Assembly (NCBI RefSeq): GCF_029211225.1
Contig: NZ_JARGEM010000005.1
Span: forward strand, 62,001-126,000
Length of the DNA: 64,000 nucleotides
Source: Antiquaquibacter metalliresistens
Lineage (GTDB): Bacteria > Actinomycetota > Actinomycetes > Actinomycetales > Microbacteriaceae
Reading direction: 5' to 3'
Shown here piece by piece: positions 46,686 to 57,181 of this stretch; positions within the stretch are counted from its first letter, which is position 1; every line of letters begins with the position of its first letter. The position numbers were made by a program, and so were the translations under genes. The notes beneath the pieces are model-generated. The model saw only the letters and a list, made by a program, of their open reading frames with translations. It was not told the origin of the DNA and made no database searches.

Positions 46686-47018
46686 GTGACGTACGTCATC
46701 GCCCAGCCCTGTGTCGATCTGAAAGACCGCGCGTGCATCGACGAGTGTCCCGTCGACTGCATCTACGAGGGCGAACGCATGCTCTATATCCAGCCCGACG
46801 AATGCGTCGACTGCGGTGCTTGCGAGCCGGTCTGCCCCGTCGAGGCCATCTACTACGAAGACGATCTGCCGCAGAAGTGGGCCGATTACTACACCGCGAA
46901 CGTGGAGTTCTTCAGCGAGACGGGAATCGGCTCGCCCGGCGGCGCCTCGAAGGTCGGCGTGATCCACGCGGATCACTCCCTGATCGCCGCACTGCCCGCC
47001 GGCGGCGGCGGCGAGTAG
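46686..47018 (+). CDS. fdxA: Ferredoxin, 7Fe type
   Basis: This 110-residue ferredoxin has seven conserved cysteines in [17 protein letters not shown] (cluster I) and [12 protein letters not shown] (cluster II), the 3Fe-4S plus 4Fe-4S pattern of actinobacterial FdxA. It transfers electrons in the cytoplasm. The C-terminal 45 residues extend past the fold and end in PAGGGGE. GTG 46686 is the start. Its TAG shares its final G with the GTG of dapC, so the two genes are coupled, an arrangement common in Actinobacteria. Confidence 0.94.
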
Positions 47019-48124
47019 TGCCCCGAACTCCGCTCGCGCTGCCCGAGTTCCCCTGGCACTCGCTCGTGCCGTACGGGGATCGCGCGCGACAGCATCCGGA
47101 CGGCATCATCGACCTGTCGGTGGGCTCGCCGGTCGACCCGACGCCAGAGCCGATCCGCGCGGCGCTCGCGGCGGCGACGGATGCCCACGCCTACCCACAG
47201 ACGGCAGGCACCCCCGCGCTGCGCGAGGCCATCGTCGCCTGGTTCGCACGCCGCCGGGGCGTGACGGACCTCTCGGTCGCCAACGTCATCCCGACCATCG
47301 GCTCCAAGGAGCTCGTCGCGCTGCTTCCGCTGCTGCTCGGTGTGCGCTCCGGCGATGTCGTCGTGCATCCGAGTGTGGCTTACCCGACGTACGCGATCGG
47401 TGCGGCGCTGGTGGGGGCCCGGGCCGTGGCATCCGACGATCCCGCCGAGTGGCCCGAGAACACGGCGCTCGTCTGGCTCAACAGCCCCGGCAACCCGGAT
47501 GGGCGGGTGCTGTCAGTCGAACAGCTGCGGGCCGCGGTCGCGCGGGCCCGGGAGCTCGGCGCCGTCATCGTCAGCGACGAGTGCTACGCCGAGCTGAATT
47601 GGGAGGGCGTCGGCACCACGCCGTCGATCCTGCATCCCGACGTGATCGCCGGTGACCGCAGTTCGGTGCTGGCCGTGTATTCGCTGAGCAAGCAGTCGAA
47701 CCTCGCCGGCTACCGGGCGGGCCTCGTCGCAGGCTGCAGCGGCCTGGTCGGGGAGTTGCTCGAGGTGCGCCGCCATGCCGGTCTGATCCCGCCGGAACCC
47801 GTGCAGGAGGCGATGATCGCCGCGCTCGCGGACGACGCGCACGTCGCGGAGCAGCGCGAACGGTATCGGGCGCGCCGCGAGGTACTGGCCGCGGGGCTGC
47901 GGGATGCGGGCTTCGCCATCGACGAGAGCGGCGCCGGGCTGTATCTGTGGGCCACTCGGGGCCAGGACGCGTGGGCGACCGTGGCCGAGCTGGCCGAGCT
48001 CGGCATCCTGGTGGTACCCGGTTCCTTCTACGGCGAGGAGCCGGCGCGGCACGTGCGGGTCGCACTCACGGCCACCGATGAGGCGATCGCGGATGCGGCG
48101 CGCCGCCTGAGCGCGTCCCGATGA
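47018..48124 (+). CDS. dapC: Succinyldiaminopimelate transaminase
   Basis: This is a class I/II PLP aminotransferase, 368 residues. PLP Lys225 lies in YSLSKQSNLAGYR, with NSPGNP at 155-160 and the Asp in SDECYAELNW. Its place behind fdxA, and with dapD and dapE 3-4 kb downstream, points to DapC, which aminates N-succinyl-2-amino-6-oxopimelate in lysine and peptidoglycan precursor synthesis. The start is GTG 47018, overlapping the fdxA stop by one base. An N-acetyl variant of the pathway is excluded by the succinyl-type DapD here. Confidence 0.9.
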   Translation: MPRTPLALPEFPWHSLVPYGDRARQHPDGIIDLSVGSPVDPTPEPIRAALAAATDAHAYPQTAGTPALREAIVAWFARRRGVTDLSVANVIPTIGSKELVALLPLLLGVRSGDVVVHPSVAYPTYAIGAALVGARAVASDDPAEWPENTALVWLNSPGNPDGRVLSVEQLRAAVARARELGAVIVSDECYAELNWEGVGTTPSILHPDVIAGDRSSVLAVYSLSKQSNLAGYRAGLVAGCSGLVGELLEVRRHAGLIPPEPVQEAMIAALADDAHVAEQRERYRARREVLAAGLRDAGFAIDESGAGLYLWATRGQDAWATVAELAELGILVVPGSFYGEEPARHVRVALTATDEAIADAARRLSASR

Positions 48125-48189
48125 CTGTCGATTCCTCCAACGCCCTCGCGCGGTCGTTGACGACGACCACAGTGGCTCTCGGGACCTTC

Positions 48190-48195
48190 TAAGCT
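48190..48195 (+). promoter_or_regulatory. -10 box TAAGCT of gltA, leaderless
   Basis: TAAGCT ends six bases before GTG 48202. Confidence 0.6.
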
Positions 48196-48201
48196 ATAAG
48201 C

Positions 48202-49497
<1,296 letters not shown>

Positions 49498-49555: not shown

Positions 49556-50860
49556 GTGGTGAAAGAGTCCGTGTCGGCGCGCGCTGAGCGCCTTCGCCTC
49601 GAGAACGAGCGGTTGCGGTCGGAGCTGGATGCCGCGCGCACCGCACAACGGACCGGCCGACAGTGGCGAGCGGTGCTCTCCGGCCTGCTCGTCGTACTCG
49701 GGGTGATCGTGACTCCGGCGGCGCTGCTGGCCTCCTACGCGAGCACCCAGCTCGACGACACCGACACCTTCGTGCGGGCCCTCGCTCCGCTCGCCGCCGA
49801 CCCCGATGTGCAAGCGCTCATCGTCGAGCAGTCGGTCGCCGCGATCGATGGCGCAGTCGATATCGACGGCCTCACCGCCGACCTCTTCGACGGCATCGCA
49901 TCGCTCGGCCTTCCGCCACGCGCGGGCGAGGCGCTCGGGCTGCTCTCCGGCCCTGCGGCGGCCGGGCTGCGTTCCCTCGTGCGCGAGGCGGTGACCACCG
50001 TCGTGAGCGCCCCGGCATTCGCCAACGTGTGGGAGGGCGCGCTGCGACTGACCCACGAGCAACTCGTCTCCGCACTGCGCGGCGAGCCGGATGCCGTGCT
50101 CGCCCTGACCGAGCAGGGCAGCATTGGCGTGCAGGTCGGCCCGATCATCGCCGCGGCGAAGCAGCAGCTCCTGACCCAGGGCATCGCCTTCGCCGAGTTC
50201 ATCCCGGAGATCGACCGCACGATCGAGGTGGCCCAATCGGACGGGCTCGCCCAGGCCGTCGGCGTGTACCACCTCACCACGACCCTCGGGCTCTGGCTGC
50301 CCTGGGTCGCAGCACTGCTGCTGCTCGCGGGCATCCTCATGGCGCGGGCGCGCTTTCGCGCCGTCGTCGCGACCGGAATCGTGCTCGCGGTGTCCCTGGG
50401 GCTCGTGGCCATCGCCATCGCGATCGGGCGGGCGCTCTTCCTGGGAGCGGTCGCGCCGTACCTGCCGGCCGGGGCCGCCGGGTCGCTCTTCGACGCACTC
50501 ACGGCGTCGTTGTCGGCGACGACGCTCGCGCTGCTCGTCCTCGCCTCGCTCGTCGCGATCGGTGCGTACCTCGCTGCGCCCTTCCGATCCAGCGCCGCGC
50601 TGCGCGGGCTCACCGCCGACGCGCTGGCACGCCTGCGTTCCCGCGCCGACGCGCGGGGGATCGGCACCGGTCGCTTCGGCGACTGGTTGCACCGCGCGCG
50701 GATGGTGCTGCTGGCCGCGCTGCTCGCCGCGGTGGTGCTGGTGCTCGCGCTCGTGCGACCGCTCACCCCGGCGCTGGTGGGGTGGACGGCGCTCGGGGCT
50801 CTCGTGCTGCTCGTGGCGTTCGGACTGCTGCAACGGCCCTCGGCGGCGCGTGCCGACTGA
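49556..50860 (+). CDS. Large membrane protein with extracellular domain
   Basis: This 434-residue protein has an N-terminal coiled-coil leader (about 8-34: RAERLRLENERLRSELDAA), a first helix (about 42-62) and an extracytoplasmic region of about 180 residues. That region opens with LDDTDTFVRALAPLAADPDVQ, a signature of a widespread actinobacterial membrane family of unknown function. Four more helices follow at about 243-262, 267-290, 320-345 and 380-428. GTG 49556 is the start. It converges on dapD with five bases between stops. Confidence 0.75.
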   Translation: MVKESVSARAERLRLENERLRSELDAARTAQRTGRQWRAVLSGLLVVLGVIVTPAALLASYASTQLDDTDTFVRALAPLAADPDVQALIVEQSVAAIDGAVDIDGLTADLFDGIASLGLPPRAGEALGLLSGPAAAGLRSLVREAVTTVVSAPAFANVWEGALRLTHEQLVSALRGEPDAVLALTEQGSIGVQVGPIIAAAKQQLLTQGIAFAEFIPEIDRTIEVAQSDGLAQAVGVYHLTTTLGLWLPWVAALLLLAGILMARARFRAVVATGIVLAVSLGLVAIAIAIGRALFLGAVAPYLPAGAAGSLFDALTASLSATTLALLVLASLVAIGAYLAAPFRSSAALRGLTADALARLRSRADARGIGTGRFGDWLHRARMVLLAALLAAVVLVLALVRPLTPALVGWTALGALVLLVAFGLLQRPSAARAD

Positions 50861-50864
50861 GCGC

Positions 50865-51803
50865 TCAGGCGTGCAGGGCGGCGTTGAGGGTGATGCCCGA
50901 ACCGGTGCGTGAGGTCGCCTCCACGGCGCCCGTCTGCGAGTTGCGGCGGAACAGTAGCCCCGGGGTCCCGCTCAGCTCGGCGGCCTTCACGACGCGTTCG
51001 GCACCGTCGATCAGCACCGTGACCTTCGTGCCGGCGGTGACGTAGAGGCCCGCCTCCACGACGCTGTCGTCGCCGATCGCGATGCCGACGCCGGAATTCG
51101 CGCCGAGCAGCGCGCGTGCGCCGATCGAGACCCGCTCGGTGCCGCCGCCGGAGAGCGTGCCCATCGTGGACGCCCCGCCGCCGATGTCCGCCCCGTCGCC
51201 GACGACGACGCCCTGCGAGATGCGCCCCTCGACCATCGATGCGCCGAGGGTGCCGGCGTTGTAGTTGACGAAGCCCTCGTGCATCACGGTCGTGCCGGGG
51301 GCCAGGTGCGCCCCGAGCCGCACGCGCGAGGCGTCGGCGATGCGCACCCGCTCCGGCGTGACGTAGTCGATGAGCCGGGGGAACTTGTCGATGCCGTGCG
51401 CGGCGATCCCGGCCCGTTGCAGGCTCGGGCGCAGTCGCTCGAAGTCCTCGGGATGCACCGGCCCGGCATTCGTCCACACCACGATCGGCAGGTGGGCGAA
51501 GATGCCGTCGAGGTTGATCGTGTTGGGGGCGACCAGCAGGTGACTCAACAGGTGCAGGCGCAGGTAGGCGTCCGGGGTGCTGGTGGGTGCGGCATCCAGG
51601 TCGATCTGCACCGTGCGGAACTCGAGCTCGACGCCGCGGCGCTCGTCGGCCCCGGTGAGCGCCTCGAACTCGGCGGGGGCGATGTACGGATCGGTGCCGA
51701 CGGGCAGGGCGCCGAGCTGAGGGTGCGGGAACCAGGTGTCGAGCACGGTTCGGTCGCCGGAGACAGTGGCCAGGCCGTAGCCCCAGGCAGCGCGCGTGGT
51801 CAT
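50865..51803 (-). CDS. dapD: 2,3,4,5-tetrahydropyridine-2,6-dicarboxylate N-succinyltransferase
   Basis: DapD transfers succinate from succinyl-CoA to tetrahydrodipicolinate, the first step of the succinylase branch of lysine synthesis. The 312-residue protein is the actinobacterial form, with a left-handed beta-helix of hexapeptide repeats (about 165-265). Typical segments are [31 protein letters not shown] and [12 protein letters not shown]. The start is ATG 51803; a TAAGGT box ends six bases upstream, so the message is leaderless. It diverges from dapE across 22 bases. Confidence 0.95.
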
Positions 51804-51809
51804 GCACCC

Positions 51810-51819
51810 ACCTTAAACT
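51810..51819. promoter_or_regulatory. Overlapping divergent -10 boxes of dapD and dapE
   Basis: TAAGGT on the minus strand (51815 to 51810) serves dapD (ATG 51803). TAAACT on the plus strand (51814 to 51819) serves dapE (ATG 51826). Each ends six bases before its start codon and the two share bases 51814-51815. Confidence 0.7.
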
Positions 51820-51825
51820 GTTCGG

Positions 51826-52911
51826 ATGCCGCTGACCGATCCCACCCTCCCCGTGCTCGATCCCGGTGCCGGCGTCGTGGGTCTCACGCGCCAGCTGTGC
51901 GACATCGAGTCGGTCTCCGGTAACGAGGCCGCGATCGCGGACGCGATCTGGGCGAGCCTGGCGACCGTCGACCATCTGGAGCTGCACCGGGACGGCGACG
52001 CGATCGTGGCGCGCACGAACCTCGGTCGCGACAAGCGCGTGATCATCGCGGGGCATATCGACACGGTGCCGGTGAACGCGAATCTGCCGGTGCGCGAGCA
52101 CGACGGCATGCTCATCGGCCGCGGCACCGTCGACATGAAGGGCGGCGTGGCCGTCGCGCTCGCCTTGGCTCTCGATCTCGACACCCCGCCGGTGGACCTC
52201 ACGTGGATCTTCTACGACCACGAGGAAGTCGACAGCGCGCTCAACGGCCTCGGCCGCCTCGCGCGTAACCACCCCGAACTGCTCGAAGGCGACTTCGCGA
52301 TCCTCGGGGAACCCACGAGCGCGACCATCGAGGGCGGCTGCAACGGCACGGCCCGCATCGACGTGCGGCTGCACGGGGTGCGCGCCCACAGCGCGCGATC
52401 GTGGGTCGGCCACAACGCCATCCACGACGCCGCCGGCGTGCTCGCGATCCTCGCCGCCTACGAGCCCGCCGCGATCGAGGTCGACGGGCTCGTGTACCGG
52501 GAGGGGCTCAACGCGGTCGGCATCACCGGCGGGGTCGCCGGCAACGTCATCCCGGATGAGGCGGTCGTCAGCGTCAACTACCGCTTCGCGCCCAGCCGCA
52601 GCGCCGCGGATGCCGAGGCTCACCTTCGCGAGGTCTTCTCCGGCTACGACGTGGAGATCACGGATCTCGCCGAGGGCGCCCGCCCTGGACTCGACGCGCC
52701 GCTGGCTCAGGACTTCCTCGCCGCGGTCGGCGGGCAGGCGAGCCCCAAGTACGGCTGGACGGATGTCGCGCGCTTCTCCGCCCTCGGCATCCCCGCCGTC
52801 AACTACGGCCCTGGTGACCCGCTCAAGGCGCACGCGGACGACGAAGCGGTGGCGATCGAGGAGATCCTCGCTTGCGAGCGGGGGCTGCGGGCGTGGCTGA
52901 CCGGCGGCTGA
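51826..52911 (+). CDS. dapE: Succinyl-diaminopimelate desuccinylase
   Basis: DapE, a dinuclear zinc M20 peptidase, hydrolyses N-succinyl-L,L-diaminopimelate. The 361-residue protein shows the metal ligands in HIDTVPVN (His), GTVDMKGGVAVAL (Asp), YDHEEVDS (catalytic and ligand Glu), GEPTSATIEGGCNG and the C-terminal GDPLKAHADDEAV (His). Its expected partners DapC and DapD are encoded nearby. The ATG is six bases after a TAAACT box. The membrane-protein gene that follows overlaps its 3' end by 19 bases. Confidence 0.95.
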   Translation: MPLTDPTLPVLDPGAGVVGLTRQLCDIESVSGNEAAIADAIWASLATVDHLELHRDGDAIVARTNLGRDKRVIIAGHIDTVPVNANLPVREHDGMLIGRGTVDMKGGVAVALALALDLDTPPVDLTWIFYDHEEVDSALNGLGRLARNHPELLEGDFAILGEPTSATIEGGCNGTARIDVRLHGVRAHSARSWVGHNAIHDAAGVLAILAAYEPAAIEVDGLVYREGLNAVGITGGVAGNVIPDEAVVSVNYRFAPSRSAADAEAHLREVFSGYDVEITDLAEGARPGLDAPLAQDFLAAVGGQASPKYGWTDVARFSALGIPAVNYGPGDPLKAHADDEAVAIEEILACERGLRAWLTGG

Positions 52912-55636: not shown

Positions 55637-57181
55637 TCAGCGGCGGCGGATCGCCTTGAGGGCCTTCAGCAGCGTCACGAGCACGCCCGAGAGGCGCTCG
55701 AACTCGGGGCCGACCCGCGGCAGGCCGATGAGTCCGGTGGCCTCGGCGATCGTCGTCGAGTCGACGTAGCGCAGCATGCCCTCGGGGCCGTTGCGGCGGC
55801 CGAGTCCGGACATCTTGAGCCCGCCCATCGGGGCGGCGACGGTGCCGAAGCTGGCCCGGTACCCCTCGTTGATGTTCACGCTGCCCGCCTCCAGTCGCGC
55901 GGCGACCCGGCGGGCGCGGGCACGCGATCCGGAGAATACCGAGGCGTTGAGCCCGAACTCGGAGTCGTTGGCGGCCGCGATCGCCTCGTCTTCGTTGTCG
56001 ACGACGTAGATCGAGACGACGGGACCGAAGGTCTCCCCGGCGAAGCACTCCATCTGCTCGGTCACTCCCGAGAGCACGGTGGGGGCGTAGAAGAAGGGGC
56101 CGAGCTCCGGCCGGGCGACACCGCCGGCGAGCACCGTCGCGCCCTTGGCGACCGCGTCGTCGACGTGGGCCTGCACGCGCTCGAGCTGGGCGGCGGAGGT
56201 CAGGGAGCCGACATCGGTGCTGTAGTCCAACGCCGAGCCCTGCTTGAGGCCGGCGACGCGCTCGGCGAACGCGGTCGTGAACGCCTCCGCGACACCGCGC
56301 TCGACGTAGATGCGCTCGATCGAGACGCACAACTGCCCCATCGAGGAGAAGGCCGCGTACGCGGCATCCGCGGCGGTCTTCACCGGGTCGACATCGTCGA
56401 GCACGATCATCGGGTTCTTGCCGCCGAGCTCCAGGGATGCCCCGTGCAGCTTGCCGATCGCCCGTGCGCCCACCCCGAGCCCCGTCGGGGTCGAGCCGGT
56501 GAACGCGACGTAGTCCCCGGCGTCGACGACCGCGTTGCCCACGACCGCCCCGGGACCGGCGACGACCGCCCAGAGCGCGGCGGGAACCCCGGCGTCGATG
56601 AACGCGCGGCGGGTGGCGAGGATGCTGAGCGCCCCCTGGTTGTCGGCCTTCTGCAGCACGGCGTTGCCGGTGGCGAGCGCGGGCACGACGTCCATCGCGG
56701 CGAGCGAGATCGGGTAGTTCCACGGGGTGACGATCGCGATGAGGCCCTTGGGGCGATAGCTGACCTTGGCGCGCAGCACCAGCGGGATGGCGGAGCGCCG
56801 CCCGTGGGTGCGCAGCACCCGGGCGGCCGAGAGCGCGCTGTACCGGGTGACGGATGCCGCCTGGAACACCTCCTCGAAGGCCTGGCCTCGGGTCTTGCCC
56901 GACTCGGTCTGCAGCAGGTCGAGCAGCTCTCCGCGGCGCTCCAGCAGCAGGTCGTGGGCCTTGAGCAGCACCGCGCGGCGGTGGGCGGGGCTGGTGGCGC
57001 GCCAGGCGGCCTGGGCGACGCGGGCGGCGGCTGCGGCATCCGCGACGTCCTGGGCGCTGCTGATCGGCAGCTCGTGCAGCACCTCGCCCGTGAATGGGGC
57101 GATGACGGCAGCGGTCTCGCCGCTCGTCGCGGTGAGATCGGTGGTGAGTTCGGCGGCGCGCGACGACACTGTTGCTGGCAT
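55637..57181 (-). CDS. Succinate-semialdehyde dehydrogenase (NAD(P)+)
   Basis: This 514-residue aldehyde dehydrogenase has catalytic Glu251 in ELGGKNPMIV, Cys285 in SSMGQLCVSIER, and the cofactor motif VTPWNYPISL at 151-160. It is closest to the GabD2-type SSADH group that oxidises succinate semialdehyde to succinate, but the exact aldehyde is inferred. TAGGCT ends six bases before ATG 57181. It diverges from a GPH transporter gene by 35 bases and may act on the product of the nearby PLP enzyme. Confidence 0.85.
   Translation of the reverse strand: MPATVSSRAAELTTDLTATSGETAAVIAPFTGEVLHELPISSAQDVADAAAAARVAQAAWRATSPAHRRAVLLKAHDLLLERRGELLDLLQTESGKTRGQAFEEVFQAASVTRYSALSAARVLRTHGRRSAIPLVLRAKVSYRPKGLIAIVTPWNYPISLAAMDVVPALATGNAVLQKADNQGALSILATRRAFIDAGVPAALWAVVAGPGAVVGNAVVDAGDYVAFTGSTPTGLGVGARAIGKLHGASLELGGKNPMIVLDDVDPVKTAADAAYAAFSSMGQLCVSIERIYVERGVAEAFTTAFAERVAGLKQGSALDYSTDVGSLTSAAQLERVQAHVDDAVAKGATVLAGGVARPELGPFFYAPTVLSGVTEQMECFAGETFGPVVSIYVVDNEDEAIAAANDSEFGLNASVFSGSRARARRVAARLEAGSVNINEGYRASFGTVAAPMGGLKMSGLGRRNGPEGMLRYVDSTTIAEATGLIGLPRVGPEFERLSGVLVTLLKALKAIRRR

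Follow-up and report, generated by a model that had tools for sequence, protein, structure and literature searches.

Bacterial bidirectional promoters are reportedly the subject of a 2021 Nature Microbiology paper by Warman, Grainger and colleagues. In the portion of PMC12825309 available, the two transcription starts of such promoters are most commonly 18 bp apart, with spacings of 10 and 23 bp also common; strong activation of one direction is described there as capable of repressing the other, and in the five E. coli promoters that were tested the basal activity was too low for the two directions to compete. For actinobacteria, passages of PMC3898074 report that 73% of primary starts in M. 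tuberculosis carry TANNNT and that no -35 motif is conserved, and describe closely juxtaposed divergent promoters as common in that organism, while 33% of the mRNAs of C. glutamicum are given as leaderless in an excerpt of PMC3890552.

The locus described here lies in a 64,000-nucleotide stretch of the Antiquaquibacter metalliresistens genome (the window, whose numbering we use). Within it, dapD, for tetrahydrodipicolinate N-succinyltransferase, occupies 50865-51803 on the minus strand, and dapE, for succinyl-diaminopimelate desuccinylase, 51826-52911 on the plus strand. The products score 482.4 bits against TIGR03535 (DapD_actino; cut-off 441.5) and 499.2 bits against TIGR01900 (dapE-gram_pos; cut-off 304.2), respectively, and DapD aligns with its genus relatives from residue 1. 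Among the succinylase-specific steps of lysine synthesis, DapD carries out the first, DapC the one between and DapE the last, so that the preliminary description, which had called the pair the third and last enzymes of the branch, placed DapE correctly but not DapD. Shortly before the dapD region, at 46733-49497, are a DapC-like (aminotransferase) open frame and a citrate synthase-like one, and three genes of the succinylase branch may thus lie within about 6 kb of the window, the DapC-like frame being judged from its translation. A membrane-protein-like open frame (49556-50860) converges with dapD, the two ending 4 bp apart (50860-50865).

The plus strand at 51801-51828 reads CAT GCACCC ACCTTAAACT GTTCGG ATG, with the dapD start codon at 51803-51801 on the minus strand and that of dapE at 51826-51828 on the plus strand. 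Between them, the 22-bp spacer (51804-51825) is made up of two 6-nt discriminators flanking a 10-bp double -10: the predicted dapD element TAAGGT (51815-51810, minus strand) and the predicted dapE element TAAACT (51814-51819, plus strand) have two bases in common, a self-complementary TA at 51814-51815, and each of them stands exactly 6 nt from its ATG. This layout had been read right to the base in the preliminary description. A search for start, box, box and start in this order gives a single hit in the window and no hit in 100 dinucleotide shuffles, and the feature by which a bidirectional promoter is recognized, opposite-strand -10 elements that overlap such that key bases serve both directions, is found at 51814-51815. 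If both RNAs begin at the A of the ATG, as the distance from the boxes suggests, the starts of dapD (51803, minus strand) and dapE (51826, plus strand) would be 23 bp apart.

We consider it likely that the spacer is a bidirectional promoter for the housekeeping sigma factor, in the 23-bp register, and that it gives rise to two leaderless mRNAs. RNA polymerase, presumably with sigma-A, would open the shared, TA-centred and AT-rich -10 region in either orientation: facing rightward it would use TAAACT and begin the dapE transcript with the A of the start codon, and facing leftward it would use TAAGGT and begin the dapD transcript in the same way. Because the distance from box to ATG is 6 nt, both mRNAs are predicted to be leaderless, a point absent from the preliminary description; neither would have a 5' UTR, translation would presumably start without a leader, and the 22 bp would hold little beyond the two discriminators and the two TA-sharing boxes. 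At any instant one orientation would exclude the other, probably with little effect on output at the modest activity to be expected of promoters of this kind.

What makes the two boxes credible is that relatives retain a box at each gene, since the bare pattern also arises by chance. In all of 110 loci, comprising that of the window, 80 from named relatives and 29 additional ones drawn from 299 family genomes, dapD lies opposite dapE, with spacers ranging from 17 bp to 2.4 kb. Four loci, L071 and L072 (Agromyces), L131 and L136, have the genes about 0.6-2.4 kb apart and keep leaderless-type boxes at both. All 110 loci have TANNNT 6-7 nt before dapD; before dapE it is found by script in 108 and by eye in the other two. 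Both boxes are at this distance by script in 108 of 110 loci (window included), with 94 distinct spacer strings; in L029 and L048, which the script missed, the spacer is 17 bp long and the motif lies farther upstream than the script's range. In an offset profile over 108 loci, which excludes L071 and L072 (spacers above 1 kb) and in which one locus may count at both distances, the motif ends 6 nt before the dapD start in 91 loci and 7 nt before it in 17, and the corresponding numbers for dapE are 78 and 30; the start codons are candidates near the aligned N-terminus, a choice that favours boxes at 6-7 nt, and the control for it is the low count of 0 to 6 at all other offsets. Three of four decoy hexamers occur 0-3 times at offsets 6-7, with peaks of up to 24 elsewhere, and the fourth, TNANNT, which overlaps the TANNNT motif, likewise peaks there (37 and 20 loci).

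The double-box test is passed by 169 of 171 loci in a larger family set, the relatives being an uneven sample, taken from the best matches downward, in which some genomes recur between collections under a second locus id, as with L003 and L152; L029 fails the script although its motif can be made out by eye, and L113 is a genuine exception, with no dapE box by the test. The full survey of 201 loci contains 179 with both boxes, 12 without and 10 without dapE. The mark of a leaderless gene, a TANNNT conserved in orthologues 6-7 nt ahead of the start codon, is therefore present at dapD and at dapE alike, and because the motif ends 6-7 nt before the start codons the boxes fit the leaderless actinobacterial promoter. 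This suggests that both hexamers are -10 boxes of leaderless promoters, and the conservation of a box at leaderless distance at each gene supports the proposal of a minimal divergent promoter whose -10 boxes overlap. Longer spacers without matching boxes in related genomes had been named as evidence that would speak against it; many relatives do have longer spacers, but the boxes are kept.

The overlap is a different matter from the boxes. All 27 genus loci have TANNNT 6-7 nt from the starts of both genes, and TAAACT is the dapE box in 13 of them (44 of 169 family loci). The two boxes are 2 bp apart in 24 of the 27 genomes, as in AGAGTA-CT-TAAACT, 18 bp apart in two, and overlapping in the window only. 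Because the 2-bp layout is that of these 24 genomes and also of the four loci closest in the tree, the shared-TA overlap is most likely young within the genus, derived most simply from that layout by a net loss of 4-5 bp, as read from one assembly. After such a small deletion dapD would have switched to a new box in which the TA of the dapE box serves a second time, and the new box is again 6 nt from the dapD ATG.

By simple reasoning, there are only two registers in which fixed bases of TANNNT can coincide with those of its reverse complement: TANNNTA, with starts 18 bp apart, and ANNNTANNNT, with starts 23 bp apart. The window has the second. The 18-bp register is found at 31 family loci, most often as CTAGATTAG or CTAGGTTAG, in seven pure clades within one larger group of 41 rows; 25 of the 31 loci are named, and 22 of these 25 are Cryobacterium or Leifsonia. 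The shared-TA register is found elsewhere in the family at L149, with distances of 6 and 7 nt and predicted starts 24 bp apart, and in another family at six loci of one genus, with distances of 7 and 7 nt and predicted starts 25 bp apart, these last being less certain as they have GTG starts and depart by a summed 30 nt from the starts projected from the alignment. In the remaining 113 family loci with both boxes, the boxes are at least 4 bp apart. Parsimony on a FastTree tree of 186 rows requires at least four changes for each register. Outside the family, 30 loci at class level, chosen as the best by DapD from 244 genomes that gave a match and not an even sample, divide into 10 that pass the double-box test, among them the six shared-TA loci of that one genus, 10 that fail it and 10 without a dapE match, as judged in a locus that reaches 1.5 kb beyond dapD. 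L038 (Cryobacterium adonitolivorans) has two tandem copies of the box that its relatives share between the genes, TAGATTAG followed 14 bp on by TAGATTAG, one for each gene; from its sequence this looks like an escape from a shared promoter by duplication, the reverse of the formation of an overlap.

Boxes of the leaderless type are abundant in the host genome. Over 464 kb, TANNNT is located at 6 nt for 68 and at 7 nt for 30 of 437 genes, as called by a simple codon-usage script and not a published gene finder, vs 0-10 at other offsets. The 77 divergent pairs in this sample have such boxes on both sides in 13 cases, on one side in 39 and on neither in 25, and the shared-TA register accounts for two of the 13 double-box pairs. 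Genome-wide, the exact 6/6 shared-TA pattern occurs at 7 sites as against 2 in a backwards control, from which it follows that the bare pattern can also arise by chance. Five of the 7 separate a divergent pair of open genes whose third positions are G or C in 78-96% of cases: dapD/dapE, cation-efflux-like/proC-like, M3-peptidase-like/methyltransferase-like, LysR-substrate-domain-like/short gene and mutY-like/kinase-like, the neighbours being named from their translations without a family search. An additional divergent pair, SMR-like/VOC-like, shares its TA at 7/6 spacing; the five shared-TA divergent pairs other than dapD/dapE are located at position 1501 of each of L224, L225, L229 and L230, and near 285020 of contig C30. 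With four more exact sites and one 7/6 site, all between divergent genes, dapD/dapE is not singular in its genome. Across 150 family genomes the 6/6 shared-TA pattern occurs at 340 sites vs 102 in the control, and the 18-bp register at 170 vs 170, that is, with no enrichment, which rules out a genome-wide enrichment of both shared registers in favour of the 23-bp one only. In the window, divergent pairs with leaderless-type boxes on both sides are also seen at 57181, 55215 and 5385, where the boxes are 11, 24 and 71 bp apart.

It had been proposed that each -35 region lies inside the opposite gene. As a position this is right, but an actual -35 element within the opposite gene has to be rejected: a sigma70 scan of 51000-52700, not designed for actinobacterial promoters, gave 0 sites, and in a set of 146 distinct spacers, some of them from outside the family, every position 17-23 bp upstream of the boxes stays at or below about 0.25 bit. 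The 27 genus sequences alone give higher values there, probably because they are closely related and the region is coding sequence. The TTGACA-like -35 at 16-18 bp spacing of a classical sigma70 promoter is not found at dapD/dapE. As for the boxes themselves, TAAGGT has G at box position 5, where 95% of the 146 spacers have C, and is without the T-C-G context usual before dapD boxes; among 169 family loci it is used at dapD by the window only (it is found at dapE in three others). Because it departs from the common pattern in this way, the dapD box may be weak, and dapD the weaker side of the pair.

The odd dapD box could also be coincidental, with dapE leaderless as proposed and dapD made from a longer transcript that would start inside dapE and be translated by way of AAGGTGG. 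This Shine-Dalgarno-like sequence is indeed present upstream of the dapD ATG, the TAAGGT of the window is newly formed relative to the genus, and some Shine-Dalgarno-like 5-mer is found no more than 16 nt from dapD in 24 of 169 family loci. However, AAGGTGG ends 4 nt from the ATG, closer than usual, and 1 of 169 family loci has it, the window alone, which disposes of it as the main reading; in the genus, a Shine-Dalgarno-like 5-mer precedes dapD in only 2 of 27 loci as against 27 of 27 with TANNNT at 6-7 nt, and no sigma70-type site was seen in 51000-52700, although that scan is a poor test for actinobacterial promoters. We regard a longer dapD transcript as improbable. It is even conceivable that the overlap does not exist, the 4-5 bp deletion behind it being an assembly or sequencing error that conceals a layout with boxes 2 bp apart, given that one genus genome of 27 has it. 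Both frames are nevertheless open and a TANNNT still stands exactly 6 nt from dapD, an outcome that we infer would be rare for a random error, and an artefact of this kind seems to us very improbable.

Another possibility takes the overlap at face value but gives it a regulatory purpose: the balance of DapD and DapE would be set by mutually exclusive firing. Expression by mutually exclusive firing was the suggestion of the preliminary description, and the part of it that stands is that simultaneous occupancy of the overlapping boxes by two polymerases is sterically excluded. Shared boxes do recur at the dapD/dapE locus in several lineages, and the repression of one direction by strong activation of the other is on record in the available part of PMC12825309. 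As a mode of expression, however, it does not hold up well against the low basal activity of all five promoters tested in that same source, and the boxes do not overlap in 24 of the 27 genus genomes, with spacers elsewhere of more than 100 bp. Because of these 24 genomes the overlap is apparently not needed to express dapD and dapE, and a balancing device is unlikely. One could also see the dapD-dapE junction as an evolutionary hot spot that collapses repeatedly onto one or other of the two sharing registers, since one shared opening site would balance or de-noise DapD and DapE output; this we find doubtful, but were it true, the junction would amount to a replicated natural experiment on how double-leaderless bidirectional promoters are selected.

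If instead the spacer is the bidirectional leaderless promoter that we favour, the control region of two genes can be as small as 22 bp and leave both mRNAs without an untranslated leader. For the same two genes, the relatives supply a series in which the boxes overlap by five bases, share two, are 2 bp apart or are far apart, and such a series would permit a direct test of the effect of -10 overlap on expression or noise; the work in PMC12825309, as far as the available text goes, is on E. coli.

A literature search on dapD/dapE promoters found nothing on the subject, one on leaderless and bidirectional promoters returned, in the parts retrieved, only work on Pyrococcus furiosus (archaeal), a review, work on E. 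coli synthetic tandem promoters and work on yeast, and a term search of the available text of PMC10937400 found nothing on divergent promoters. Like the bacterial bidirectional promoters, as these appear in the accessible parts of PMC12825309 and PMC10268837, the dapD/dapE spacer has overlapping, pseudo-symmetric -10 elements on opposite strands, a predicted start spacing of 23 bp and two mRNAs as its predicted products. It differs from them in that both mRNAs are predicted to be leaderless, such that the intergenic region would be promoter only, and in that its boxes are of the TANNNT type with no -35 found and with starts that are predicted. With the actinobacterial leaderless promoters, as described in passages of PMC3898074 and PMC3890552, it has in common a TANNNT 6-7 nt upstream and no conserved -35 found, whereas here two such promoters face apart and share bases. 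Also comparable are the juxtaposed divergent leaderless promoters of M. tuberculosis, such as prpD/Rv1129c, in which both mRNAs of a divergent pair are leaderless, as is predicted here, although the passage concerned of PMC3898074 does not state whether the -10 boxes overlap. The dapD/dapE spacer is probably a tidy new example of an already known type of two-way bacterial promoter, and its mechanism is probably not new.
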